A stretch of DNA of 64,000 bases from Peptococcaceae bacterium 1109 (GTDB lineage Bacteria; Bacillota; Limnochordia; Darwinibacteriales; Darwinibacteriaceae), in the NCBI GenBank assembly GCA_001028815.1, contig LDJB01000001.1:308707-372706 (forward strand). Reading direction: 5' to 3'. Position 1 is the first letter of the stretch. Each line of letters starts with the position of its first letter. The notes beneath the pieces are model-generated. The model worked only from the letters and a program-made list of their open reading frames with translations. It was not told the DNA's origin and searched no databases. Shown here one piece after another: positions 49,324-64,000 of the stretch. The position numbers and the translations under genes were made by a program.

Positions 49324-50217
49324 ATGTTTCAGTTTCTCGCCCCGCATCTTAGGGAGATCTTGGAGAGAAGCTCCCCCTCGGACTGGGAAGAAGTACGTCT
49401 CCGGGTCAATCAGCCGCTAGTGGTGAAGGGCCGCACCGGCTACTGCTTCCTGAGCCCTTTAGGAAGAGTCGTGCCGAAAGATGAAGCGTATCGTCCCACA
49501 CCTGAAGACCTAGCCCGCACAGTTCAGATTCTCACCAATAGTTCCTGGTATGCCTGGGAAGATGAGATTCGCCGGGGTTACCTTACGATCCCCGGCGGAC
49601 ACCGAGTGGGTATCTGCGGGCGAGCGGTGTTGGATGGGGGGAAAGTTAAAACCGTGAAGTCCGTTTCGTCCTTGAGCATACGGCTGGCAAGGGCCGTTCC
49701 AGGCTGCGCAGACAGCCTCATGCCCCACATTTGCCCAAAGGGGAGGGAAGTCCTGTCCACCCTGGTCATTTCTCCCCCGGGCTGCGGCAAGACCACCCTT
49801 CTCCGGGATCTTGCCCGCCAGATTTCCCAACGGGGATTCCAGGTGGTGGTCATTGATGAACGCTCTGAGATTGCCGCGTGTTACCAAGGAAGTGCCCAAC
49901 TTGATGTGGGCCCTCAAACGGACGTACTGGACGGGTACCCAAAGGCCGAAGGAGTGGCAGTTGCGGTGCGAGCCCTATCCCCTCAGGTGGTTGTTACTGA
50001 TGAAATCGGCCACCCCGATGATGGGGCTGCTCTCGCGGAATTAGCCCGCTCCGGAGTAAAGGTGCTTGCGTCCTGCCACGGCGACTCGCTGGCGCAGGTG
50101 AAGGCAAGGAGTTGGGCCCGGGACAGCTTGCCTGTTTTCCAGTTAGCTGTGGTTCTGTCTCGGCGCAGTGGGCCAGGCACCGTTGAACAAGTTCTAAGTT
50201 TACGGTCTGGCACATAG
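49324..50217 (+). CDS. spoIIIAA: Stage III sporulation protein AA, secretion-type ATPase
   Basis: Cytoplasmic ATPase of the SpoIIIA-SpoIIQ channel connecting mother cell and forespore. Walker A SPPGCGKTTLL, Walker B-like VVVIDERSEI and VVVTDEIGHPDD are those of type II/IV secretion ATPases. 297 residues from the ATG at 49324, preceded by GGGGGGGAAGGG; a TTG at 49294 with AAGGA upstream is an alternative. First gene of the eight-gene operon. Confidence 0.94.
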   Translation: MFQFLAPHLREILERSSPSDWEEVRLRVNQPLVVKGRTGYCFLSPLGRVVPKDEAYRPTPEDLARTVQILTNSSWYAWEDEIRRGYLTIPGGHRVGICGRAVLDGGKVKTVKSVSSLSIRLARAVPGCADSLMPHICPKGREVLSTLVISPPGCGKTTLLRDLARQISQRGFQVVVIDERSEIAACYQGSAQLDVGPQTDVLDGYPKAEGVAVAVRALSPQVVVTDEIGHPDDGAALAELARSGVKVLASCHGDSLAQVKARSWARDSLPVFQLAVVLSRRSGPGTVEQVLSLRSGT

Positions 50218-50243
50218 GATGAATTGGACAGGGGTGAGGGGAT

Positions 50244-50756
50244 ATGCAGTTCATCGGTGCGGCCCTGATCATGCTTGCTTGCGGCATGATGGGCTTGACG
50301 GTGGCCCGCAGCTATGTTTCTCAAGCGGAGAACATTAAACAACTCATCACCATGCTCCAGCTCTTGGAAACAGAGATCGGCTATGCCCGGACCGCTCTCC
50401 CCGAGGCATGCAGGCGCATCAGCGCTCAGCTTCCAGGTGCAGTAGACAGTTTTCTCACTGCGGTCTTGGAGCACATCCATGCCCATCCTGGGGAGGCCTT
50501 TGGCGATGGGTGGCACGCTGGCTTAGGGCGCCTCGGTGCCTGGGGGCTGCCAGCTGTTGTCCTAAACGACTTGACAGTCCTAGGTGAAGCACTGGGGGTG
50601 AGCGATGTGGAGGACCAGCGGCGACACTTGCAGGTAACCCGTTTGCGGTTGGAAGACGCTTATCGCCAGGCTGAGCAGGAGTGGCGTACCAACTGGAAGC
50701 TCTGGAGCTACTTAGGGTTTGCCGCGGGCCTCTTGATTCTCCTACTGATTTTCTGA
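50244..50756 (+). CDS. spoIIIAB: Stage III sporulation protein AB
   Basis: Membrane component of the feeding-tube channel, GspF-like. A hydrophobic helix at each end (MQFIGAALIMLACGMMGLTVA and SYLGFAAGLLILLLIF) flanks a helical cytoplasmic domain. LLETEIGYARTALPEA is the typical block. 170 residues. Confidence 0.92.
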   Translation: MQFIGAALIMLACGMMGLTVARSYVSQAENIKQLITMLQLLETEIGYARTALPEACRRISAQLPGAVDSFLTAVLEHIHAHPGEAFGDGWHAGLGRLGAWGLPAVVLNDLTVLGEALGVSDVEDQRRHLQVTRLRLEDAYRQAEQEWRTNWKLWSYLGFAAGLLILLLIF

Positions 50757-50774
50757 GCATTGGGGGCGACTGCA

Positions 50775-50972
50775 GTGACTGATCTCACTCCCATCTACAG
50801 GATCGCAGGCCTTGGAATCCTCGTGGCAGTGCTCAACATCTTTTTGGTGCAGGCTGACCGAAAGGAACAGGCCCAGATGTTGAGCCTTGCCGGAGTGATC
50901 ATCGTCCTTTTGTGGCTTGTACAGATGGTGGCACAGCTCTTTGAAAACGTGGAAGCAGTCTTCCGCTGGTAA
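50775..50972 (+). CDS. spoIIIAC: Stage III sporulation protein AC
   Basis: Two-helix membrane protein of 65 residues (YRIAGLGILVAVLNIFLVQA and MLSLAGVIIVLLWLVQMV), with the usual QADRKEQAQML cytoplasmic link. GTG at 50775 fits the family length; a TTG at 50760 would add five residues. Confidence 0.9.
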   Translation: MTDLTPIYRIAGLGILVAVLNIFLVQADRKEQAQMLSLAGVIIVLLWLVQMVAQLFENVEAVFRW

Positions 50973-50983
50973 GGGGTGGTAGC

Positions 50984-51376
50984 ATGCTGTGGCTGCCGGT
51001 GGCGGCGGGGATCGCGATGGTTCTCACAGCAATCCAATCCGAACTCCGGGAAGAGCATCCAGCTTGGGCCGTGGTTACTGCTCTTTCCTTCATGGTAGTG
51101 GTGTCACTGGCCCTCCTACCCCGCCTTGAAGGGGTGGTGGCTGTCTTTACCGAGATGGCCGAGACGGCCAATGTCAGCTCCATCTATCTCGCTCCCGTAC
51201 TGAAAGCCATTGCCGTGGCGTACATTACGTCCTTTGGTGTCCAGCTCAGCCGGGAGGCAGGTGAAGAAACCATCGCGACCACCATCGAGCTTGCAGGTAA
51301 GGTGGTGATTCTCTTGGTGGCTGTCCCTCTGATCCAAGCCATCTTTTCCACCTTATTGGCTCTGCTAGACTACTAG
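50984..51376 (+). CDS. spoIIIAD: Stage III sporulation protein AD
   Basis: 130-residue membrane protein with four hydrophobic segments, related to SpoIIIAC. IYLAPVLKAIAVAYITSFGVQLSREAGEETIAT is the conserved core. GGGGTGG precedes the ATG. Confidence 0.92.
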   Translation: MLWLPVAAGIAMVLTAIQSELREEHPAWAVVTALSFMVVVSLALLPRLEGVVAVFTEMAETANVSSIYLAPVLKAIAVAYITSFGVQLSREAGEETIATTIELAGKVVILLVAVPLIQAIFSTLLALLDY

Positions 51377-51379
51377 CGG

Positions 51380-52549
51380 GTGAAAAACATGAAGAGGACA
51401 ACGTATGCGTCCGTTATTTTTCTTTTGCTACTGGCTCTGTGCCTGAGAAACGCTCACGGGGCACCGCTGGAAGAGTCTATCGCAGCGCAGCTCGAGGAGC
51501 TCGGCCTGGAAGGCCTGATGGGCTACAGTGAGCTCGTGGACCCTGATTTCCGAGCTTATCTCCCGAAGCTAGACCTTAAAGGTATCTTGGCTGGGGGAGA
51601 GGGCGGTGCTGGAGTAGGCGAGCTGTTCCGCCAGCTTCTAGCTTTGCTGCTCCAGGAAGTTGTGGTCAGCTTGGCTCTCCTAAGGCAGCTTGTGGTGGTA
51701 GCCGCGCTTTCTGCCCTCCTCACCCAGTTAGGTGGCTCCTTCGGGGAAACGGCGGTCATTAACTTGGCCAAAGCCATCTGTTTTCTGGTGATCATTATCT
51801 TGGGCTTGCAGAGCTGCCGGGCCGCGCTGGCACTAGCCGCGGATACGATCGACAAGATGGTGTCTTTCATGTATGCCATCCTTCCCATGCTGGCATCGCT
51901 CCTCGCTGCCGCCGGTGGGGTCACATCCGCGGTGATCTTCCACCCAGTGCTTGTAGCCATGGTGGGCGCTGTAGCCTCGACCGTGAGATATGTATTACTA
52001 CCCTTGATCTTTGGCGGAGCGGTGATTGGTCTGCTAGCCCACTTTTCCACAGAACTGCCCCTTTCCCGCTTGGCGGGCCTGGCCAGGCAGGTGACCGTGA
52101 CCTTGATGGGGCTGCTTTTTGTAGTGTTTTCAGGAGTAATGGCAGTCCGGGGAGCCATTTCCCCAATCGCTGATGGGATCGGTATCCGAACGGCAAAGTT
52201 CTTGACCAAGACCTTTGTGCCCGTTGTAGGCGGCATGTTTTCCGACGCAGTGGAGGTGGTGGCGGGAGGTTCCCTGCTCATCAAGAACGCGGTGGGCGCT
52301 TTCGGACTGGCAATGGTGTTTTTCTTAATGGCGGTGCCGGTGCTGAAACTGTGGGCAGTGGTGCTCATCTACAAGGCGGTGAATGCGGTAACTCAACCGA
52401 TCGTGGACGAGCGCGTTGTGGCGGCCATTGCCAGCTTGGAACACAGCCTTACGTTAGTACTTGCCGCCCTTGCTACCGCCGGCTTAATGTTTTTCCTTGT
52501 CATCACGGTCCTTGTGGGCCTGGGTAACTTGACCGCCGTGTTGAGGTGA
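51380..52549 (+). CDS. spoIIIAE: Stage III sporulation protein AE
   Basis: Largest membrane subunit, 389 residues. Signal-like N-terminus, an amphipathic region, then about eight membrane helices, as in a permease-like channel protein. Family block LYKAVNAVTQPIVDERVVAAI (here IYKAVNAVTQPIVDER) is present. GTG at 51380; an ATG three codons later is possible and neither has a strong RBS, suggesting coupling to spoIIIAD, which ends 3 bp upstream. Confidence 0.93.
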   Translation: MKNMKRTTYASVIFLLLLALCLRNAHGAPLEESIAAQLEELGLEGLMGYSELVDPDFRAYLPKLDLKGILAGGEGGAGVGELFRQLLALLLQEVVVSLALLRQLVVVAALSALLTQLGGSFGETAVINLAKAICFLVIIILGLQSCRAALALAADTIDKMVSFMYAILPMLASLLAAAGGVTSAVIFHPVLVAMVGAVASTVRYVLLPLIFGGAVIGLLAHFSTELPLSRLAGLARQVTVTLMGLLFVVFSGVMAVRGAISPIADGIGIRTAKFLTKTFVPVVGGMFSDAVEVVAGGSLLIKNAVGAFGLAMVFFLMAVPVLKLWAVVLIYKAVNAVTQPIVDERVVAAIASLEHSLTLVLAALATAGLMFFLVITVLVGLGNLTAVLR

Positions 52550-52553
52550 GTTT

Positions 52554-53063
52554 ATGGAACAGCTCCGGTCATGGTTGAAAACAGTCACTGGCCTCGTGAT
52601 CATCCTTGGCGTCTTGGAAACACTGCTCCCTGATGCGGGTGGGGTAAAGGGATTCGCGAAGCTTGTGTTTGGTCTAGCACTGATGGCTGCAATTCTGCAA
52701 CCGGTCTTGGCCCTAGTTTCACTGGACTGGGCGGTGGTGGCTCCGCCAGAGACGGGAGTGGGGCAGGATAACTGGCTTGCCACCGCCGAGAGGCTGCAGG
52801 CTAAGGGCGCGGCCCCCCTGCTCGCGGCAGTGGAGGATTCTGCTGCCCGGCAGCTTCAAAGCCTTCTCCTAACAGTGGATGGGGTAGAAGAGGCCTTGGT
52901 GGAGCTTACACCGGGCTCAGGTCAGATGGAGGAAGCAACGGTGGTGGTCCAGGGGTCAGGGGAGATCGCTCCGCGAATCCGGAGAATTGCCGCATACTAC
53001 CTTGACATCCCAGAAAGCAAGGTCAAGGTAAGAATCACGTCGAAGGGGGAGCCTGGTGAGTAA
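52554..53063 (+). CDS. spoIIIAF: Stage III sporulation protein AF
   Basis: Two N-terminal membrane helices (VTGLVIILGVLETLLP and LVFGLALMAAILQPVLAL), then a soluble ring-building-motif domain with VEEALVELTPG and an IPESKVKVRI ending. 169 residues. Overlaps spoIIIAG by 8 bp. Confidence 0.9.
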   Translation: MEQLRSWLKTVTGLVIILGVLETLLPDAGGVKGFAKLVFGLALMAAILQPVLALVSLDWAVVAPPETGVGQDNWLATAERLQAKGAAPLLAAVEDSAARQLQSLLLTVDGVEEALVELTPGSGQMEEATVVVQGSGEIAPRIRRIAAYYLDIPESKVKVRITSKGEPGE

Positions 53064-53583
53064 GTTCTTGGAACGTCTAACCGACAGACAGAAGAAGCTC
53101 CTGAGCTGGCTGTCTCTTGCAGTACTGGTTGGTGTAGGCCTGTTTCTGATCCAGCCCGGCGGCACTCCTGAAAAGCCTTTCTCTTCCAGCCCCGCGGCCT
53201 TACCTGAATCCCCCCATCCCTTTGCGGCAGAAGCCCGGTATCTGGAGTCACGCCTTGAGGAACTCCTCAGCGCGGTTGCTGGAGTGCGCCGGGCACAGGT
53301 GTTTGTTACCCTGGAACGGGGGACCCGCCTGAGGCTTGCGGAGGAACTGACCGTGGAAGAACAGGGAGGGGTGGAGAGGCGGCGTACTTCGTCCCCGGCG
53401 CTGCTCCGCAGCGGGCAGTCAGAAGAACCCATAGTTCTAGAAGTGGATTGGCCTGCAGTGCAAGGCGTCCTGGTGGTGGCAGATGGGGCAGAAGACCCGG
53501 AACTGCGGTTTCGCATCGCCCAGGCGGTTCAGACGGTGCTACAGATCGAGATGTATCGCATTGAGGTTTTGCCGAGAAATTAG
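53056..53583 (+). CDS. spoIIIAG: Stage III sporulation protein AG
   Basis: One membrane helix (LSWLSLAVLVGVGLFLI) followed by a ring-building-motif domain that forms a large oligomeric ring in the channel. YLESRLEELLSAVAGVRRAQVFVTLERG and GVLVVADGAEDPELRFRIAQAVQ are the family blocks. GTG start. 175 residues, slightly short because the linker after the membrane helix is compact. Confidence 0.92.
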   Translation: MSKFLERLTDRQKKLLSWLSLAVLVGVGLFLIQPGGTPEKPFSSSPAALPESPHPFAAEARYLESRLEELLSAVAGVRRAQVFVTLERGTRLRLAEELTVEEQGGVERRRTSSPALLRSGQSEEPIVLEVDWPAVQGVLVVADGAEDPELRFRIAQAVQTVLQIEMYRIEVLPRN

Positions 53584-53597
53584 GAGGAGTGAGGTAA

Positions 53598-54182
53598 ATG
53601 GCGAGGTTTTACGTCCTAAAGGGCAGGCGGATTTTGTGGAACATACTTGTGGTGGCTGCTGCAGTTGCATTGCTGGCCTACGTGTTTAATGTGGAGGAAC
53701 AAGAGGTGCCCGAGGCAGAAGTGGAGCCAGTAGAGGTTCACGACACCGCAGCGGTTATGGCAAGTCTAGAAGAAAGCGAACCCCTAGAACTCGCGGACCA
53801 GGCAGAGTACGTCACTGTCAAGCCTGTGCCCACAAAGTTTACAGAGTACCGCATGGAGCGGGAGCGGGTCCGCAGCCGTCAGATGGAGCTCTTGCAGAAC
53901 GTAGCCTATGATCAAGCGGTGGACCCGGAAAAGCGCTTCGCTGCCCATGGGGAGCTGCAGGCACTCATCGCCACTATGGCCCTGGAAGCTGAAATTGAGA
54001 ACCTCCTCAAGGCGAAAGGCTACATCGATGGGGTGGCAATCCTAGACGAGGGCTCCGCTATCATAGTGGTGCCCGTGAGGCTTATTCGAGAAGAGGCAGC
54101 CCAAATTGGGGAGCTTGTCAACCGCTTAACGGGTATTCGGTTTGAGCACATTACTATTGTGGACGAACCCTTTACCGTATAG
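53598..54182 (+). CDS. spoIIIAH: Stage III sporulation protein AH
   Basis: Forms the mother-cell side of the channel by binding forespore SpoIIQ. Single N-terminal membrane helix (ILVVAAAVALLAYVF), a Glu/Pro-rich linker, then the YscJ-like domain with AEIENLLKAKGYIDGVAILDEGSAIIVVP. 194 residues. AGGAGTGAGG precedes the ATG. Confidence 0.93.
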   Translation: MARFYVLKGRRILWNILVVAAAVALLAYVFNVEEQEVPEAEVEPVEVHDTAAVMASLEESEPLELADQAEYVTVKPVPTKFTEYRMERERVRSRQMELLQNVAYDQAVDPEKRFAAHGELQALIATMALEAEIENLLKAKGYIDGVAILDEGSAIIVVPVRLIREEAAQIGELVNRLTGIRFEHITIVDEPFTV

Positions 54183-54238
54183 AGGAATCTCCTGCGCAAT
54201 GTCGAACATTAAAAAAATCACATCACCGGAGGTACTCT

Positions 54239-54679
54239 ATGGATTTACGAGATATCAAGGACTTGCTCGCGGTCGTAGATGCTGCGCAGATCGCGGAGCT
54301 CGAAATCGAGCAAGGAGATTTTAAGATCAGGATCCGCAAGTTTGGGGTGGCCGGCGAGCCGGTGGTGGCGGCTGCTCCTCCAGTCCGGAGCTCAGCACCA
54401 GAGCCTGCTGAAGTTCAGCCCACACTGCCCGTAAACGTGGTGGAAGTTGTGGCACCCATGGTTGGGACCTTCTACCGGGCTCCTGCCCCAGATGCCGACC
54501 CCTACGTGAAGATAGGGGATACTGTGGAGCCTGGGCAGGTTTTGCTTATTATCGAAGCCATGAAGATGATGAACGAGATTGAGTCGGAGTGTCGCGGCAA
54601 GGTAGTGGAGATTCTTGTGGAGAACGGCGCCCCGGTGGAATACGGGCAACCCCTCATGCGCGTTCAGCTTGCGGAGTAG
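54239..54679 (+). CDS. accB: Biotin carboxyl carrier protein of acetyl-CoA carboxylase
   Basis: Carries biotin for malonyl-CoA synthesis. The N-terminal domain is followed by an Ala/Pro linker (about 45-70) and the biotinyl domain with biotinylation lysine in EAMKMMNEIES. APMVGTFYRAPAPDADPYVKIGD is the conserved lead-in. 146 residues. Directly downstream of spoIIIAH, the same arrangement as in B. subtilis. Confidence 0.95.
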   Translation: MDLRDIKDLLAVVDAAQIAELEIEQGDFKIRIRKFGVAGEPVVAAAPPVRSSAPEPAEVQPTLPVNVVEVVAPMVGTFYRAPAPDADPYVKIGDTVEPGQVLLIIEAMKMMNEIESECRGKVVEILVENGAPVEYGQPLMRVQLAE

Positions 54680-54691
54680 GAGGGGCAGTTG

Positions 54692-56038
54692 ATGCAAAGG
54701 GTATTAGTGGCGAACCGGGGAGAAATTGCCCTGCGGATTATTCGCGCTTGCAGAGAGTTGAACATTGAGAGTATTGCCATCTTCTCGGAAGCAGATCGGG
54801 ATTCGCTCCATGTGAAGTATGCCGATCGGGCGGTATGTGTGGGCCCTGCCCCCTCATCCCAGAGCTATCTCAACCTCCAAAACATCATCTCCGCGGCGGT
54901 GGTGCACGGGGCTGATGCGGTCCATCCGGGGTACGGCTACTTGAGTGAACAGCCCCTGTTCGCGGAGATGTGTGAAGCCCACAATCTCATCTTTATTGGG
55001 CCCAGCCCAGAGCAGATTGAGCTTTTGGGGGACAAGGCCCGGGCAAAGGCTGTTATGGCAGAGGCTGGGGTGCCGGTCATTCCCGGTAGTGAAGGGCCAA
55101 TTGAGTCTGATGCGGAGCTAATTAAGATCGCGGAAGAAATTGGCTATCCTGTGATTATTAAAGCCGCCGCCGGTGGCGGAGGCCGGGGCATGCGCCTCGT
55201 TTGGAAGGCAGAAGACCTCCTCCAGCAGAGTAAGATTGCTAGGGCGGAAGCCGCGGCCGCGTTCGGAAACGATCAGATCTACTTGGAGAAGTATTTCGTC
55301 AATCCCCGCCACATAGAAGTGCAGGTTGTCGCGGATCACCATGGCAATGTGGTCCATCTCGGCGAGCGGGAGTGTTCCCTCCAGCGCCGCCATCAGAAGC
55401 TTTTGGAAGAGTGCCCCTCACCCGCGGTCAGCGACGAGCTGCGGGAACGTTTAGGTGCCGCTGCGGTTCAAGGTGCCAAGGCCGTTGGCTACCGCAACGT
55501 GGGGACGGTGGAGTTTCTCTTAGATGCACAGGGTGAGTTCTATTTCATGGAGATGAACACCCGCATCCAGGTGGAACATCCAGTGACGGAGATGGTGTAC
55601 GGGATCGACCTTGTGAAGGAACAGCTGCGCATCGCGGCAGGGGAAGAGCTAGGCTATGACCAGTCAGGGATAGGTGCCTATGGACATGCCATGGAGTGCC
55701 GGATCATCGCGGAGGCTATCGGGAAAGAGTCCCGCCCGTCTCCAGGCACGATTACGCGGCTGCAGGTGCCAGGGGGATGCGGTGTGCGCTGGGACAGCCA
55801 TGTCTACCAAGGGTACACTGTGCCCCCTTACTATGATTCCATGTTCGGCAAGCTGATTGCATGGGGGACTGACCGGGACGAGGCCATCAGCCGAATGGAG
55901 CGGGCCTTGGAGGAGCTGGTAATAGAGGGCATTGAGACGTCAGTGCCGTTTCACCGCAAGGTTTTGCAGCATCCCCGCTTTCGGAAAGGGGACTTTTCCA
56001 CCAGTTTCGTAGATGAACTGCTCAGTGAACAAAGTTGA
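54692..56038 (+). CDS. accC: Acetyl-CoA carboxylase, biotin carboxylase subunit
   Basis: ATP-grasp enzyme carboxylating BCCP biotin. VANRGEIALRIIRACRELNI opens the domain, AAAGGGGRGMRLV is the glycine-rich ATP loop, and MEMNTRIQVEHPVTEMV holds the catalytic block. 448 residues from the ATG at 54692 (AGGAGGGG 7 nt upstream); an adjacent TTG at 54689 is less likely. 12 bp after accB. Confidence 0.96.
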   Translation: MQRVLVANRGEIALRIIRACRELNIESIAIFSEADRDSLHVKYADRAVCVGPAPSSQSYLNLQNIISAAVVHGADAVHPGYGYLSEQPLFAEMCEAHNLIFIGPSPEQIELLGDKARAKAVMAEAGVPVIPGSEGPIESDAELIKIAEEIGYPVIIKAAAGGGGRGMRLVWKAEDLLQQSKIARAEAAAAFGNDQIYLEKYFVNPRHIEVQVVADHHGNVVHLGERECSLQRRHQKLLEECPSPAVSDELRERLGAAAVQGAKAVGYRNVGTVEFLLDAQGEFYFMEMNTRIQVEHPVTEMVYGIDLVKEQLRIAAGEELGYDQSGIGAYGHAMECRIIAEAIGKESRPSPGTITRLQVPGGCGVRWDSHVYQGYTVPPYYDSMFGKLIAWGTDRDEAISRMERALEELVIEGIETSVPFHRKVLQHPRFRKGDFSTSFVDELLSEQS

Positions 56039-56066
56039 GCCGTTTGTGGTACGTTCCGATCTCCTC

Positions 56067-56075
56067 TGGTATAAT
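56067..56075 (+). promoter_or_regulatory. Extended -10 promoter upstream of the Asp23-family gene
   Basis: TGGTATAAT (TGnTATAAT), 20 bp upstream of the ATG at 56096. The -35 region is poor. Confidence 0.5.
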
Positions 56076-56095
56076 ATGCATAAGGAGGTGCTCAC

Positions 56096-56506
56096 ATGGC
56101 AGAACAAGAACGTCGGACTGAGTTGGGTGACTTGAAAATCGCTGATGAAGTAGTAGGGATCATCGCGGGCCTAGCGGCAACGGAAATCCCCGGTGTAGCA
56201 GGCATGAGCGGGGGAATTGCGGGCGGCATCGCCGAGATGTTGGGTCACCGCAATCTCTCCAAAGGCGTCAAGGTCGAAGTGGGCCAATCTGAGTGCGCCG
56301 TAGATTTGTACATTATTATTGAGTACGGATACAACATACCTGAAGTGGCGCAGCAGATTCAAGAAAATGTGAAGCGCACCATCGAAGTGATGACTGGGCT
56401 TAAGGTGGTGGAAGTTAACCTGCACGTTTTGGGCGTACACTTCCCGCCGGAGAAGAAGGCGGAAGAACCGGCCCCACCAAAGCCGGCCCCTTCCCGGGTG
56501 AAGTAA
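56096..56506 (+). CDS. Asp23/Gls24-family envelope stress protein (YqhY-like)
   Basis: 136-residue Asp23 protein of the type encoded between accC and nusB in Bacillota; in B. subtilis YqhY affects acetyl-CoA carboxylase activity. Blocks: IADEVVGIIAGLAATEIPGVAGMSG and VGQSECAVDLYIIIEYGYNIPEVAQQIQENVK. The Lys/Pro-rich tail is variable. AAGGAGG lies upstream, and it begins a new transcription start near 56080. It binds the membrane anchor encoded next. Confidence 0.92.
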   Translation: MAEQERRTELGDLKIADEVVGIIAGLAATEIPGVAGMSGGIAGGIAEMLGHRNLSKGVKVEVGQSECAVDLYIIIEYGYNIPEVAQQIQENVKRTIEVMTGLKVVEVNLHVLGVHFPPEKKAEEPAPPKPAPSRVK

Positions 56507-56507
56507 A

Positions 56508-57026
56508 ATGACGGGATTGGATCAAGTTGTCTTAGGCTTCACTGCCCTGGTTTTGGTGGTGCTCGGCGCCTTGGCAGCTGCGGCCAGCTTTGGCTTTCCC
56601 GCCGCGCTCCACTGGCTCAGCGCACCCCAAGGCTGGGTGGAAGGGCTTCTAATCCTCGCGGTTTTCGTCCTTCTCGCTGCTTACTTGGTGACAATTCTGC
56701 TGCGGCAGAAAGGCGAACCAGCCGTCGTCCATCAGGCAGAACTGGGAACGGTGCGGATTTTGGTGACTACAATCAAAGGCCTTGTGGCAAAGCGGGCCCG
56801 AGAGGTAGAGGGCGTTAAGGACGCTCTGGTGACGGTTTTGCACACAGAGCCGCTGCAGCTCCGGGTTGAACTGGAGATTCTTCCAGACTTTAACGTGCCC
56901 CGCCTGGCGGAGGAACTGCAGGCGCAGGTGAAGGATTACCTCGCGGATACGATGGGGATCGCAGTGTCCGCGGTGGAAGTCTTGGTGCGGGGCATTGGCG
57001 GTTCTGCCAAACCACGGGTGTCTTGA
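56508..57026 (+). CDS. amaP: Alkaline shock response membrane anchor AmaP
   Basis: Two N-terminal membrane helices, then an Asp23-like cytoplasmic domain that recruits Asp23 to the membrane. AELGTVRILVTTIKGLVAKRAREVEGVKDA and DTMGIAVSAVEVLVRGI are recognisable. 172 residues. Separated by 1 bp from the Asp23 gene. Confidence 0.85.
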   Translation: MTGLDQVVLGFTALVLVVLGALAAAASFGFPAALHWLSAPQGWVEGLLILAVFVLLAAYLVTILLRQKGEPAVVHQAELGTVRILVTTIKGLVAKRAREVEGVKDALVTVLHTEPLQLRVELEILPDFNVPRLAEELQAQVKDYLADTMGIAVSAVEVLVRGIGGSAKPRVS

Positions 57027-57043
57027 GTTGGGGTGAGTTGCTT

Positions 57044-57451
57044 TTGAGTAGACGGCTGGCGCGCCAGGTGGCGTTCCAAACACTGTTTCAAATTGATCTA
57101 GGACAATGTGATGGGGAAGAAGCGCTCCAGCAGCGATTAGCAGAAATTGAGCTGGATGATGCCAACGCTGGTTATGTGGAAGAAGTAGTCAGGGGGGTAT
57201 GCCGCTACCTCAATGCCCTTGATGCCCAAATCAGTGAGGTAGCCAAGGATTGGAAGGTACACCGCCTTGGGGCGGTGGATCGCAACATCTTGCGGTTGGC
57301 CATCTACGAGATCGTGTTCCGGGATGATGTTCCCGTACCTGTCTCGGTGAATGAGGCGGTGGAGTTGGCCAAGCTGTTTGGGGATGAAGATTCACCCCGA
57401 TTCATCAATGGCGTCCTGGGGACGGTAGTGAGAACCGGTGGCTTTGCATGA
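57044..57451 (+). CDS. nusB: Transcription antitermination factor NusB
   Basis: Helical RNA-binding protein that works with NusE on boxA for rRNA antitermination. MSRRLARQVAFQTLFQIDLGQ is the normal N-terminus; VDRNILRLAIYEIVF and VSVNEAVELAKLFGDEDSPRFINGVLG are the family blocks. The TTG at 57044 with GGGGTGAG upstream gives the expected start and 135 residues. Overlaps amaP slightly if the earlier TTG is used. The stop overlaps the next gene. Confidence 0.94.
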   Translation: MSRRLARQVAFQTLFQIDLGQCDGEEALQQRLAEIELDDANAGYVEEVVRGVCRYLNALDAQISEVAKDWKVHRLGAVDRNILRLAIYEIVFRDDVPVPVSVNEAVELAKLFGDEDSPRFINGVLGTVVRTGGFA

Positions 57452-58407
57452 GTCTCTACCTGGGAGTTGATACCAGTGCCTATACCACCTCCCTGTGTTT
57501 GGTAAGTTCTACTGGGGAAGTGGTGGGAGAAGTCCGGAAGGTCCTCACTGTGCCCCATGGCCAACAGGGGCTGCGCCAGTCTGAGGCAGTATTTCAGCAT
57601 ATCCAGAATCTGCCCACCTTGGCCAAGGATCTCCGAGAGCAGTTGGGGCATGGTTGGAAGGTGGCCGCGGTTGCCGCAAGCACCGCACCCCGTCCCCAGC
57701 CCGGTTCGTACATGCCCGTGTTTGTACCAGGATCGAGCTTTGGGTTGGCATACGCGCACATGGCTGGAGTCCCCTTTTACGAGCTGAGCCATCAGGAGAA
57801 CCACATTCTCAGCGGCATGCACACAAGTGGCATGCCCTCTTCCTCACGGTTTATCGCGATCCACCTTTCTGGGGGAACCACAGAACTGATGGAAGTGGCA
57901 GCAGGTGATGGAGGGCGGATGGGCATATCCATCCTTGGGGCCACCGGCGACCTGCACGCGGGGCAGTTTGTGGACCGGGTAGGGGTGGCGCTAGGCCTTC
58001 CCTTTCCTGCAGGGCCTGCTTTGGAGAAACTTGCCCTCGGGAGCGATGGGGCAGTTACTGTACCCGCGGTGCACAAACACGGCCAGCTGAGTTTCTCCGG
58101 CCCTTTGACCGCTCTTTTAGCTCATGCAGGCAAGGCGGAGCCAGGAGCAATTGCCCGGGGCTGCCTTGAGTGCATTGGGCGCGCGTTGATCAAGTGGATT
58201 AGGTGGGCAGAAGCTGAGACGAGGTGCACGGAGCTTCTGCTTGTGGGTGGGGTTGCTGCGAACCAGCTGATCAGAGAGATGCTTTCTGCAAGGCTGCCCC
58301 ACTGGAAACTGTATTTTGCTCCGCCCAGATACAGCACTGATAATGCTCTGGGGGCGGCGCTGTATGCCCGACAGGCTCACAGCCTCAGCTTTCATGGGCA
58401 GAATTGA
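57448..58407 (+). CDS. TsaD-like (Kae1/Gcp-fold) protein, paralogue of unknown role
   Basis: ASKHA-fold protein related to the tRNA t6A enzyme TsaD. YLGVDTSAYTTSLCLV is the phosphate-1 loop, and SHQENH (H115, H119) occupies the place of the HxExH metal site. SGGTTEL and VGGVAANQLIREML follow. 319 residues, shorter than TsaD (about 340), and its position between nusB and xseA, where B. subtilis has folD, differs from true tsaD. It is probably a clostridial paralogue annotated as O-sialoglycoprotein endopeptidase; whether it can make t6A is unknown. Confidence 0.83.
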   Translation: MSLYLGVDTSAYTTSLCLVSSTGEVVGEVRKVLTVPHGQQGLRQSEAVFQHIQNLPTLAKDLREQLGHGWKVAAVAASTAPRPQPGSYMPVFVPGSSFGLAYAHMAGVPFYELSHQENHILSGMHTSGMPSSSRFIAIHLSGGTTELMEVAAGDGGRMGISILGATGDLHAGQFVDRVGVALGLPFPAGPALEKLALGSDGAVTVPAVHKHGQLSFSGPLTALLAHAGKAEPGAIARGCLECIGRALIKWIRWAEAETRCTELLLVGGVAANQLIREMLSARLPHWKLYFAPPRYSTDNALGAALYARQAHSLSFHGQN

Positions 58408-58443
58408 AGCCGGGTGACCGGCTTTCTTCATTGGGGGTAAGGC

Positions 58444-59640
58444 ATGCACATCCTAGAGGTTAGGGAACTAACGGACAAGATTAAGGCAGCGCTGGACAAG
58501 CCTGAACTGCAGAATGTGGCAGTGACTGGTGAGGTCTCCAACTTTAAGCACCACACGTCGGGGCACATGTATTTTTCCCTGAAAGACGAAACCAGCCGCA
58601 TCAGGGCAGTGATGTTCCGCAGCCGTAACCGGAGCCTGAACTTCGTCCCCCAGGACGGAGACATGGTGGTCGCGGTGGGCTCGGTGGGGGTATACGAGTT
58701 CAGCGGCGATTATCAGCTGTACGTGGACTGGCTTTTCCCCGCAGGAGCCGGGGCCCTTGCCATCGCATTTGAACAGCTGAAGAGCAAGCTGGAACAGGAA
58801 GGGTTGTTTGACCGCGCCCACAAACGGCAGCTGCCATTCTTACCCAGGACGGTTGCGGTCATCACTTCGCCAACAGGGGCCGCTGTCCGGGATATCATTA
58901 GCGTGGCGCGGCGGCGCCATCCCGGCATTAATCTCTTGGTTATACCGGCCCTAGTCCAGGGTGCAGATGCCCCTGCCTCTTTGGTGCGGGGCCTGGAATT
59001 GGCTGCTGTGCAACCTGATGTAGATGTGGTGATTATCGGCCGAGGCGGAGGTTCATTTGAAGATTTGGCCGTATTCAACGATGAAGGTTTGGCAAGGGCT
59101 ATTGTCCACTGTCCCAAGCCAGTTATTTCCGCGGTGGGGCATGAAACCGATGTGACCATTGCTGACTTCGTGGCAGATGTGCGGGCCCCGACGCCATCTG
59201 CAGCGGCGGAGCTGGCGGTGCCTAGCTACCTGGATTTGGCGGAACGTGTTAAGTATCTGGAAAGCAGCCTCCAGCGCCAAGTATTAGATAGAATTAAGCA
59301 TGGGCGCCGGTACCTTGCTCAGTTGGAACGGTCTGGTGCCCTTCGGCGGCCGGGGGAACGCCTCCGCCCACTACGCATGCGCGTGGATGAACTGTGGACG
59401 CGCTTGGTGAGCATCGCAGGCCAGCAGGTGGAAGGGGGGCGCAAAGCTCGGGACGTTCTCGTGGCAAAGCTGGATGCCTTAAGCCCCCTGACCACATTAG
59501 CCCGGGGGTATGCTATCTGTCAGGACAGCACTGGCCGCGTGGTTACCAGTTATGAGCAGGTCCAGCCTGGCCAGGAACTCACTGTTCGCCTTAAACAGGG
59601 CCGGTTAGCTTGCAGCGTGCTGAAGGGGGAAGAGAAGTGA
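58444..59640 (+). CDS. xseA: Exodeoxyribonuclease VII large subunit
   Basis: Processive single-strand DNA exonuclease. N-terminal OB domain ([24 protein letters not shown]), catalytic core with [12 protein letters not shown] and [32 protein letters not shown], then the long helical region. 398 residues. The stop overlaps xseB. Confidence 0.95.
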
Positions 59641-59870
59641 AAGACTTGAAGTTCGAAGAAGCCTTGGCTAAATTGGAGGAGATTGTCCGGCAGCTTGAAA
59701 CAGGGGAGCTTCCTCTGGAGGATTCACTCAAGCTGTTTGAGTCGGGCGTGGCCCTGGCCAGGCTGTGCAGCAAGAAACTGGATGAAGCTGAGGGTAAGAT
59801 TCAGATCCTCCTCAGCGAAGATGGGGAGCCCACCAGGGAAGAGTTTGCCGTGGAGGAAGATGCCCTGTGA
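59637..59870 (+). CDS. xseB: Exodeoxyribonuclease VII small subunit
   Basis: Helical partner of Xse[35 protein letters not shown] is the family signature. GTG at 59637 behind GGGGGAAG gives 77 residues. Overlaps both neighbours by 4 bp. Confidence 0.93.
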
Positions 59871-60763
59871 CGAAAGGACTTTTGGCAGAAAGGGCCCGAG
59901 AGATAGAAGCTCTCTTAGACGAGGTGCTTCCCCCTGCTAATGCTGGGCCAGTACCCATCCATGAAGCTATGCGCTACGCTGTCCTGGGGGGCGGCAAGCG
60001 CCTCCGGGCTATCATGGCAGTAGCTGCCTGCGAAAGCGTGGGGGGCGTGGGAAAGCAGGCCTTGGGCCTAGCCGCAGCCATGGAGATGATACACGCTTAC
60101 TCCTTAGTCCACGATGATTTGCCCTGCATGGACGATGACGATTTCCGTAGGGGCAAACCTACAGTACACCGTAAGTACGGAGAAGCGGTAGCCGTCTTAG
60201 TTGGGGATGCCCTCTTAACCGAAGCCTTTGCGGAGCTTGCCCGCATGCCGGAGAAGTACGGGGTGGATCACCACACGACCGTTGCTGTCATGGGGGAATT
60301 GGCCTTTGCCAGCGGCTCGCACGGCATGGTGGGAGGGCAGGTCGCTGACATCCTAGGTGCCCAGAAGGCCGAGGCGGCAGATCAGGCTGTACTGCTCCAC
60401 TACATTCACAGTCATAAGACTGGTGCGCTGTTTAAGGCTGCACTGCGGTGCGGTGGACTCATTGGCGGGGCTAGCCCTGATCAGCTCGGAACCCTGACGG
60501 AGTTCGGCGAACACTTTGGCCTCGCTTTTCAGATCACCGATGATATCCTCGATGAAGTAGGTGAAGCGGAGGCCCTGGGCAAGGCTGTTGGACGAGACCG
60601 GGAGATGGGCAAGCTCACGTATCCGAGCCTGTTTGGGCTGGAAAAGGCAAGGGCGATGGCTCAGGAAAGCGCCGCGAAGTGCTTGGCGGCCTTGGAAGGA
60701 CTTCCCGTCAGGAGCCAGGTTCTCCAGGAACTGGCCTTGATGGTGGCAGAGCGGGATCATTAA
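59867..60763 (+). CDS. ispA: Polyprenyl (farnesyl/geranyl) diphosphate synthase
   Basis: Builds the C15 isoprenoid precursor. First Asp-rich motif in [18 protein letters not shown], second in [29 protein letters not shown] is the substrate-binding block. 298 residues. GTG start overlapping xseB. In the same block as dxs, so it supplies the isoprenoid pathway. Confidence 0.94.
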
Positions 60764-60777
60764 AGGAGAGGGCGGAG

Positions 60778-61356
60778 TTGTCTAATCGCTGGCGTACAGT
60801 GTCAATCTTGACCCTGACCACTTTTGTGCTGTCCATAGTGCTGAACTTGGGCAGCAACAGCTTAATGGCAGTCATGCCTTTATATTCAAGCTTAGTTCTC
60901 TTGGTGTTAATCATCTTTATGGGCATCGCCTTCGACGTGATTGGGGTGGCTGCGGCTGCTGGACGGGAAACGCCCTTTCACGCCATGGCATCGAACCGGG
61001 TGCGGGGCGCGCGGGAAGGTATCTGGCTGGTGCGGAACGCGGACCAGGTCTCGGTATTCTGTAACGATGTGGTGGGCGATATCGGCGGGACACTCAGCGG
61101 CGCGGTAGGGGCTAGTATTGTGTTCCAGCTGTCCAGGCGGGGTTTCCCCCTTCCCGAAACCATCCTCAGCACGGTTATGATTGCCGTGGTGGCCGCGCTC
61201 ACCGTGGGCGGTAAAGCGATGGCCAAGTCTTTTGCAATTTCGCGTTCCGTTGATATCCTTTTGATCGCTGGTAAGGTTCTCCACGCCTTGGGTAAGCTGG
61301 GGTTTGACTTCGGCCATAGCAAGCCTCGGAAGGGTAAGTCCAGGAAGGGGCGGTGA
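60778..61356 (+). CDS. oapA: OLE-associated membrane protein OapA (CNNM/DUF21-related)
   Basis: 192-residue protein with an N-terminal helix (LTLTTFVLSIVLNLGSNSL), a second (LYSSLVLLVLIIFMGIAFDVIGVAAAA), a central block PFHAMASNRVRGAREGIWLVRNADQVSVFCNDVVGDIGG, two further hydrophobic stretches and a basic tail (SKPRKGKSRKGR) suited to RNA contact. The family is related to the DUF21/CNNM magnesium-transporter domain. OapA is known to bind OLE RNA and place it at the membrane; here it lies between ispA and a candidate OLE RNA. TTG start at 60778 with AAAGGAG upstream. Confidence 0.86.
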   Translation: MSNRWRTVSILTLTTFVLSIVLNLGSNSLMAVMPLYSSLVLLVLIIFMGIAFDVIGVAAAAGRETPFHAMASNRVRGAREGIWLVRNADQVSVFCNDVVGDIGGTLSGAVGASIVFQLSRRGFPLPETILSTVMIAVVAALTVGGKAMAKSFAISRSVDILLIAGKVLHALGKLGFDFGHSKPRKGKSRKGR

Positions 61357-61369
61357 CCGGGGTGGTCCC

Positions 61370-61399
61370 TTGCGTTGCCAAGCTGCCCTGTGCTATAAT
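61370..61399 (+). promoter_or_regulatory. Promoter for the OLE RNA
   Basis: TTGCGT (61370-61375), 18-bp spacer, TATAAT (61394-61399) with the extended TGC before it (TGCTATAAT). Transcription would start near 61406, at the beginning of the structured non-coding region. Confidence 0.65.
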
Positions 61400-61406
61400 A
61401 GCATCG

Positions 61407-62030
61407 AAAAAAGGCGAATGGCGCAGTATTCTAGTCGCCACCTGAGTGTCGAAGACGGGCCTAAAAATCCGTTAAGGGCACATCGATGAAGTCTCTGGTG
61501 GTGGCCTTCGACGCCCAGTCGGGGGCTGCTGCTGGGGGTTAAGGTGGAAGGGGAACCTACAATGGCATGTAGGGGTACCCTCCCACCACGGAGACCCAAA
61601 TGCGTGGGGCCGCGGAGAACGTTGCCCTACGGTTTGGGACTGAACCTGCACGCGATGCGCAGTCGCAGCTTAGATGTACATTAGTGTGGTGTGCAGCGTA
61701 GCCTGCCTTGAGTGGTATTGGGGGATAGGGCTTGTAAGACAGGACCCTTGTGGCCAGAGGCGAATGTTGACTATCGCAAGATAGGGGCCCTTGAAACCAA
61801 TAGTGCAAAAGAGGCTAGACATTCACGGATGGCGCCGAGGAAAACTCCTAGACTGTTTCGCTCGCGATGGCATTTTGAGGATTACGGTGTGGACTAAGTG
61901 GTAATCCAGCCTCGTCTTTGGCGACAAAGCGAAAAGGCCGGAAAAGGGGAACCGCCAGCTGCGGCGACGGGCTGGAAGGCCTTTGGGAAAACCTGCTGGA
62001 CCTAAGCCACAATCTTTACTCAAAGTGCTG
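61407..62030 (+). ncRNA. ole: OLE RNA (ornate, large, extremophilic)
   Basis: About 620 nt without a credible gene, in the family's known ispA/oapA/dxs neighbourhood and of the right length. Several long-range pairings can be read: GGCGA 61413 with TCGCC 61435; GTCGAAG 61448-61454 with CTTCGAC 61506-61512; CCTACA 61556 with TGTAGG 61568 inside GGTGG 61543/CCACC 61583; GGATTAC 61879 with GTAATCC 61901; and an 11-nt match TCCAGCCTCGTC 61905 with GACGGGCTGGA 61966. OLE RNP sits at the membrane with OapA and affects growth under ethanol, cold and magnesium stress in Bacillus halodurans. Ends are approximate. Confidence 0.86.
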
Positions 62031-62071
62031 CCATTTGCCTTTCTCTACATATTAAGGTATAGGCCGTTGGT

Positions 62072-62104
62072 AGTAACAGTAAGTGTGGGTTACTCCCTTT
62101 TTTT
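62072..62104 (+). terminator. Terminator or attenuator between OLE RNA and dxs
   Basis: AGTAAC (62072-62077) pairs with GTTACT (62089-62094), then CCC and T7. It lies about 90 bp before the dxs ATG, so it may end the OLE transcript or attenuate readthrough into dxs. The region 62105-62196 shows only a modest RBS (AAAGAGGT) before the ATG. Confidence 0.6.
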
Positions 62105-62196
62105 TATCCAAGAGAGGCGACTTCAATGTGGATTGGAGATAATGTTAGTGGTTTTTTCGGTTGACACGATGACTAAGTCCAAAAAGAGGTATTGGG

Positions 62197-64000
62197 ATGC
62201 TGTATAGACTGCTGAATCGAATTAACCATCCCGCAGATCTGCACAGGCTCAGTTCAGAGGAACTTGTGGAACTGGCAGAAGAGATCAGGCACCTGATCAT
62301 CTCCACAGTGGAGCGGACTGGCGGGCACCTTGGGGCAAACTTGGGCGTAGTTGAACTAACCATCGCCCTCCATTCTGTGCTATCCAGCCCCCGAGACCGC
62401 ATCATCTGGGACGTGGGCCACCAGTGCTATACCCATAAGATCCTTACCGGACGGTTCCATCAGTTTGCCACCCTTCGCCAGTGGCACGGGATCTCCGGGT
62501 TTCCCCGGCCTTCTGAGAGTGAACACGACCATTTCGGCGCAGGGCACAGCTCCACAGCTATTTCAGCCGCGGCGGGCATGGCAATCGCCCGGGACTTGAA
62601 AGGTGAGGACTACAGCGTTGTGGCCGTGGTGGGGGACGGAGCATTGACTGGTGGAATGGCCTTTGAAGCTCTAAACCATATTGGCTCTCTTGGGAAAGAC
62701 ATTGTAGTCATTTTGAACGATAATGAGATGTCCATTGCCAACAACGTTGGTGCCTTAAGCGACTACTTGAGCCGCTTGCGCCTGGACCCCAAGTTGTACA
62801 GAGCCAGGGGGAAGCTGTCCAGCCTCATCAGCAAGATCCCTGCCATCGGCAGCCCCATGTCTAGGCTGACTCACAGCGTAAAAGAGGCTCTGAAAAGCAT
62901 GCTCCCTGGCCAGCTCTTTGAAGAGCTGGGGTTTACTTACTCAGGCCCCTTTGACGGACACAACATCAATCAACTGCGCAAGGCCATCAGGGACGGCATC
63001 GCGCGCCGGGGCCCGGTCCTCATCCATGTACACACTCAGAAGGGGAAAGGTTACGGCCCCGCGGAAAGGAACCCCACTAAGTTTCACGGTGTGGGGCCCG
63101 CTGCTGTACCTGTCCCAGATAAGACTGTGACCTTCAGCGAGGTATTCGGGGCCACACTGCTCGAGCTTGGCAAGAGAGATGAATCTATTGTGGCCGTCAC
63201 CGCCGCGATGAAGGATGGCACGGGCTTAGGGGAGTTTGCTCAAGCTTTTCCCAGCCGTTTCTTTGATGTGGGGATTGCAGAACAACATGCGTTGACACTA
63301 TCCGCAGGCATGGCTGCTTCAGGGTTGAAACCAGTGGCTGCCATCTACTCCACTTTTCTTCAGCGAGGCTACGACCAGATCATCCATGACATCTGCTTGC
63401 AGAATCTGCCGGTAGTGATCGCGGTGGATCGGGCGGGGGTTGTAGGTGATGATGGGCCTACGCACCACGGTGTGTTTGACCTAAGCTTTTTGCGCCATGT
63501 TCCCGGCCTTACTCTCCTTGCTCCCAGCACAGGGCAAGAGCTGGCGGATATGCTCGCCTGGGCCTTGGGGAGCAGCGGGCCCGTTGCAATCCGCTATCCC
63601 AGGGCCCGTACAGCCGCGCCCAGCGGAATCTACAGCGCAAATTACGATCCCACTCGGTCAGTGGAACTCCGTACTGGGCGTGACTGCGTGATCTTCGCGG
63701 TGGGCCCCTTAGTCTACGAAGCACTGGCAGCAGCAGAGATGTTATATCCCCAGATTGACTGCAGCGTGGTGGATGTCCGTTCCATCAAGCCGCTAGACAG
63801 CGCCACCATCCTGCGCCTAGCACGGCTGACAGGGAATGTGGTAACGGTGGAAGATAACGTGCTGGCTGGAGGATTTGGAGGCGGCGTTCTTGAACTGTTA
63901 ACTAGCGAACCGGGGGTTGCGGTGAGCCGCATCGGATATCCTGACGCGTTCGTTCCTCAAGGCCCCATTGAGCGCCTCTGGGAGGAATACGGTTTGTCAG
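62197..64000 (+). CDS. dxs: 1-deoxy-D-xylulose-5-phosphate synthase, 3' end outside window
   Basis: Thiamine-diphosphate enzyme joining pyruvate and glyceraldehyde-3-phosphate, the first step of the MEP isoprenoid pathway. TGGHLGANLGVVELT, WDVGHQCYTHKILTGR, the ThDP motif GDGALTGGMAFEALN, and IAEQHALTLSAGMA are present. 601 codons are visible and the frame is still open at 64000; the family is about 620-635 residues, so only the end is missing. ATG at 62197. It follows the OLE RNA. Confidence 0.97.
   Translation, partial: MLYRLLNRINHPADLHRLSSEELVELAEEIRHLIISTVERTGGHLGANLGVVELTIALHSVLSSPRDRIIWDVGHQCYTHKILTGRFHQFATLRQWHGISGFPRPSESEHDHFGAGHSSTAISAAAGMAIARDLKGEDYSVVAVVGDGALTGGMAFEALNHIGSLGKDIVVILNDNEMSIANNVGALSDYLSRLRLDPKLYRARGKLSSLISKIPAIGSPMSRLTHSVKEALKSMLPGQLFEELGFTYSGPFDGHNINQLRKAIRDGIARRGPVLIHVHTQKGKGYGPAERNPTKFHGVGPAAVPVPDKTVTFSEVFGATLLELGKRDESIVAVTAAMKDGTGLGEFAQAFPSRFFDVGIAEQHALTLSAGMAASGLKPVAAIYSTFLQRGYDQIIHDICLQNLPVVIAVDRAGVVGDDGPTHHGVFDLSFLRHVPGLTLLAPSTGQELADMLAWALGSSGPVAIRYPRARTAAPSGIYSANYDPTRSVELRTGRDCVIFAVGPLVYEALAAAEMLYPQIDCSVVDVRSIKPLDSATILRLARLTGNVVTVEDNVLAGGFGGGVLELLTSEPGVAVSRIGYPDAFVPQGPIERLWEEYGLS

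Follow-up and report, generated by a model that had tools for sequence, protein, structure and literature searches.

OLE RNA is among the largest bacterial noncoding RNAs, and its function is, to our knowledge, unsolved. The closest described system is that of Halalkalibacterium halodurans, whose OLE (RF01071) is accompanied by OapA, OapB, OapC and bS21. The mature RNA of this organism is about 630 nt long and is "presumably posttranscriptionally processed" from a longer operon transcript (PMC9723947), the gene most often found immediately downstream of ole is oapA (PMC12265935), and the way in which the OLE 3' end and the OLE:OapA ratio are set has so far been guesswork (PMC9723947). The locus described here lies in a window of 64,000 nt from Peptococcaceae bacterium 1109, this being the whole stretch of DNA that was analysed. 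It shares with the H. halodurans system a full-length covariance-model match, an adjacent oapA, an own promoter, the ispA/dxs/xse/nusB neighbourhood and homologues of OapB and OapC, but it differs in that oapA lies upstream and not downstream of ole, and in that a proposed terminator stands free behind ole.

The OLE RNA gene at 61402-62050 (+) is genuine and belongs to the already known OLE family. The first-pass annotation had read about 620 nt of non-coding sequence as OLE RNA and had let this reading stand or fall with a covariance-model search; the Rfam search returned RF01071 at 469.4 bits (E 2.9e-135), with an untruncated match that spans positions 1-616 of the 616 in the model and is the sole Rfam match above the gathering score within 50000-64000. 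The genome carries one copy. OLE RNA was found in 21 of the 23 genomes of the family and in 284 of 398 genomes sampled across the phylum, and in none of 14 control genomes. A short match in one genome (G018) was considered as a variant OLE and rejected, as a contig end cuts the match. One family member that is 94% complete (G021) gave no OLE match, which may reflect either a loss or an assembly gap.

The promoter and the neighbourhood of the gene also agree with what the first-pass annotation had proposed. An extended -10 element, TGcTATAAT, is found at 61391-61399 with TTGCGT 18 nt upstream, so that the ole promoter occupies 61370-61399 (+), and the layout of TTGC, 18 nt and TGnTATAAT precedes ole in 18/18 compared family members; simple sigma-70 and terminator scans of the locus gave nothing useful. 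Upstream lie accB, accC and nusB (these three assigned by eye from translations), a TsaD-like protein, xseA, xseB and ispA, the farnesyl diphosphate synthase gene (59867-60763, +; NCBIfam FPPsyn, 328 bits, above the cut-off), and downstream lies dxs (62197-63999, +; TIGR00204, 735 bits), which extends beyond the window end. The TsaD/Kae1-like protein (57448-58407, +) scores 117.8 of 207.8 bits, well under the TsaD subfamily cut-off, and is a divergent paralogue in the OLE neighbourhood.

The open reading frame at 60778-61356 (+) starts with TTG, is preceded by a Shine-Dalgarno sequence (AAAGGAGAG) adjoining the ispA stop codon, and encodes OapA, the OLE-associated membrane protein A, with 192 aa. 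This assignment, made earlier from a DUF21/CNNM-like appearance and a basic tail, is borne out as follows: a profile of OapA homologues (A1) retrieves the ole-adjacent oapA genes throughout the phylum, tblastn across relatives agrees with it, and CNNM/CorC transmembrane-domain structures are the top six solved-structure matches in a fold search with a model that draws on 66 homologues (pLDDT 90.6). The protein is a four-helix CNNM-like membrane protein with a basic C-terminal tail, and its Pfam CNNM match is below the cut-off (12.2 of 28.4 bits). Profile matches occur in 289/398 genomes, nearly the same ones that have OLE; one genome of the same class (G353) has OLE without an OapA match, by possible loss or an assembly gap. 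All known core parts of the OLE ribonucleoprotein are encoded in the genome. OapB, which the first-pass annotation had proposed to look for, is a KOW protein of 95 aa whose gene lies between map and infA and whose best PDB match is 7k9b, OLE-associated protein B (E 2e-6), above archaeal L14e; the OapC (YbxF) candidate, L7Ae-like and encoded between rpoC and rpsL, has YbxF and its L7Ae-like relative as best PDB matches (E about 3e-16); bS21 is encoded as well.

The order ispA-oapA-ole-dxs had been treated as ordinary, yet nearly all other OLE loci have ole and oapA the other way round. When the 398 genomes were searched for ole and for oapA, positions of both genes were listed for 88; in 87 of these oapA lies directly downstream of ole, with a gap of 10 to 231 nt, and the lone exception is the genome of the window. 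Two further family genomes, of which one belongs to the same genus and the other to a different one, also have the order oapA-ole, and in a set of named genomes 76 loci are ole-oapA versus 2 oapA-ole, the two being these same relatives. Since oapA is downstream of ole in nearly all sampled loci, the order in the window is a rare derived one, which judging by the sampled genomes is found in one small clade only. The swapped order in turn points to a stop signal of ole that would be hidden inside the oapA coding sequence in most relatives.

Neither the reversed order nor the hairpin with a U-tract at 62069-62105 (+) behind ole was remarked on by the first-pass annotation. The stem of this hairpin, GGTAGTAAC / GTTACTCCC, has 8 pairs of 9 with one mismatch, a loop of 11 and then T8, and it matches a hairpin at oapA codons 25-45 of the relatives. 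All three swapped genomes share AGTAACAG...GTTACTCC(C/G)T8 in the noncoding DNA downstream of ole. The motif at 62069-62105 is unique in the 2.7-Mb genome and appeared in 0 of 20000 shuffles of the spacer. A consensus terminator scan lists none at this position, the loop limit of the scan being 8 and the loop of the hairpin 11. The hairpin folds weakly (-6.8 kcal/mol, no better than shuffles), and because it is weak alone, termination at this putative ole terminator may be partial.

Relatives that keep the usual order have almost identical words in the oapA frame: GGT AGT AAC AGC at codons 25-28 and GTG TTA CTA CTT TTT ATT at codons 40-45, which form the hairpin GUAGUAACA/UGUUACUAC followed by UUUUUAUU. 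When 17 usual-order family genomes (OapA mean identity 71%) were compared with only synonymous sites scored, identity at these ten codons was 0.99 versus 0.41 elsewhere (Mann-Whitney p 2e-7). Amino-acid-matched codons elsewhere in oapA also average 0.41, thus the conservation is not due to residue type. In Bacillales (n=13 genomes) the most constrained stretch of the gene is codons 16-27, where GCCGUUAUCACAUUUGUGUUAGCGGC-UAUUUUUU is found with small differences and synonymous identity is 0.91 versus 0.46 (p 5e-7). In the group of Alicyclobacillus and relatives the hairpin of some members is UGGUGGUGUGUUUGACACAGCCACCA-UUUUUUU at codons 25-33, and that of other members is shifted; synonymous identity at the hairpin codons of this group is 0.60 versus 0.36 (p 0.001). 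The terminator-like hairpins are strong in Bacillales and Alicyclobacillus, and the calculated fold of GCCGUUAUCACAUUUGUGUUAGCGGC-UAUUUUUU is -14.1 kcal/mol (z -5.7). The nested hairpin of a family example folds with -19.4 kcal/mol (z -3.3); the loop of the family hairpin, 36 nt, is long for a terminator.

In synonymous-codon shuffles of 52 thinned loci the hairpin-plus-U-tract score has a mean z of 0.81 in the first 270 nt of oapA and of 0.03 in nt 280-550 of the same genes; the p-values of single genes are individually weak, and the argument is the comparison between genomes. Some lineages, for example L045-L048 and several Clostridia, have no convincing hairpin. Strict column-wise covariation was rejected as a proof of the family hairpin, because in the neighbouring genomes L072, L076 and L112 the pairing register is displaced by one codon.

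An element that belongs to ole and not to oapA should be expected to follow ole once the two genes part, and several natural separations bear on this. The three swapped genomes keep the hairpin and T8 behind ole, and the U-tract is gone from their oapA. Where ole and oapA stand 342 to 1148 nt apart (four loci), the spacer has a hairpin and U-tract in every case. One unlinked ole (L143) is followed, 8 nt past its end, by an ordinary terminator (GGCCCUUGAUAGUAAACUACCAAGGGCU-UUUAC), and no such hairpin is seen in the oapA of the same genome (L093), which lacks an adjacent ole. Overall, the terminator-like hairpin is enriched in 0/8 displaced oapA genes (swapped, unlinked or more than 300 nt from ole) versus 41/99 adjacent ones (Fisher p 0.018; score difference p 0.001). 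Since the displaced genes are only eight, three of them close relatives from one clade, we regard this sequence comparison as supportive rather than decisive. The unlinked ole (L143:47-688, on contig C85 of G420) lies beside a Phage_Mu_F head protein gene and a scaffold-like ORF; it was either relocated in or next to a prophage, or the metagenome contig is chimeric.

Taken from these comparisons, it is probable that ole is equipped with a promoter and an intrinsic terminator of its own, that the terminator is nested in oapA in most lineages, and that the swap came about by duplication and decay. The locus would make the OLE ribonucleoprotein, with OLE RNA transcribed from its extended -10 promoter and, by analogy with H. 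halodurans, anchored at the membrane by OapA, while the genes of OapB, OapC and bS21 lie elsewhere in the genome. In most relatives ole and oapA are so close that the inferred intrinsic terminator ending the ole unit would fall within the oapA frame. Such a terminator could act inside a reading frame, given that the RNA polymerase of Bacillus subtilis outruns the ribosomes (runaway transcription, PMC13323073). Most transcripts from the ole promoter would then terminate in the oapA frame, giving a precursor of OLE from which everything beyond the structured 3' end would be trimmed; such trimming must be assumed, as termination at this place predicts an RNA longer than the mature OLE of about 630 nt. 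A minority of read-through transcripts, together with the larger operon, would provide the oapA mRNA. More speculatively, ribosomes that initiate on oapA could open the hairpin and in this way adjust the level of OLE to that of OapA. That the two codes overlap in this manner, with termination or its prevention by ribosomes setting the OLE:OapA ratio and perhaps linking it to translation, is a possibility we offer tentatively.

In the swapped clade, oapA would have been copied to the upstream side of ole, and the old downstream copy would have decayed to an eroded fragment retaining the hairpin and a longer U-tract; the upstream copy, now presumably translated from the ispA operon, would have lost the U-tract of the terminator. 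The motif behind ole encodes, as read from the sequence, an in-frame GSNS...LL.FF remnant, whose protein-level similarity is by itself marginal. The survival of this remnant makes duplication of oapA upstream and decay of the downstream copy the scenario that seems to explain the swap best.

Alternatively, the conserved hairpin within oapA might act, rather than as a terminator, as an RNA element at which 3' processing takes place or the OLE ribonucleoprotein binds, for example in autogenous control of oapA translation. Conservation extends, even in the noncoding remnant, to nucleotides flanking the stem (AG of AGTAACAG), the long loop of the family hairpin itself folds, and the presumed processing of OLE from a longer operon transcript (PMC9723947) would suit such an element. 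However, the hairpins of the three lineages are unrelated in sequence, their common feature being only a stem with a U-tract after it; in the swapped clade the U-tract lengthened to T8 behind ole and vanished from oapA; and the unlinked ole is followed by an ordinary terminator. We therefore consider a processing or binding element unlikely. Still less credible, and already disfavoured, is the notion that a constraint on the protein, or the codon bias of a transmembrane helix, accounts for the conserved codons, with the hairpin arms being incidental: the region does encode hydrophobic residues with U-rich codons, but the scoring of synonymous sites only, the contrast of 0.99 with amino-acid-matched codons, the persistence of the same motif in noncoding DNA of the swapped clade and the lack of the motif in oapA genes away from ole all speak against it. 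That the oapA-ole order is an assembly artefact is highly improbable, for although at least the two named genomes with this order are metagenome-assembled, it recurs with matching junctions in three genomes of two genera whose OLE RNAs are 88-93% identical to each other and whose loci are enclosed by contigs of between 27 kb and 1.1 Mb.

A terminator of ole nested in oapA resembles the ORF-internal 3' ends and premature terminators of Escherichia coli (PMC7815308) in that a 3' end lies within a reading frame; it differs from them in that the signal would serve the gene of a noncoding RNA lying upstream, and in that such signals, unrelated in sequence, are found in several lineages. The searched open-licence full texts of the OLE literature mention no terminator of ole, and within this scope the novelty of the nested terminator is provisional. 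If the proposal is true, it would answer how the OLE 3' end and the OLE:OapA ratio are set. Deletions or point mutations in the first ~30 codons of oapA may then alter OLE RNA itself, a point that matters for the knock-out strains already made. In the swapped clade the two codes, the ole terminator and oapA, would be naturally separated.

The modeled OapA resembles the transmembrane domain of the CNNM/CorC/MpfA magnesium transporters, but it has none of their cytosolic CBS or CorC domains. MpfA has been reported to be anticorrelated with OLE RNA, and about 2,800 genomes with OLE have been reported (PMC11332333). The genome also encodes, at G000:C1:921609-922148 (L027), a protein with a full CNNM domain (open frame of 421 aa, 187 bits), a candidate that is possibly MpfA-like.
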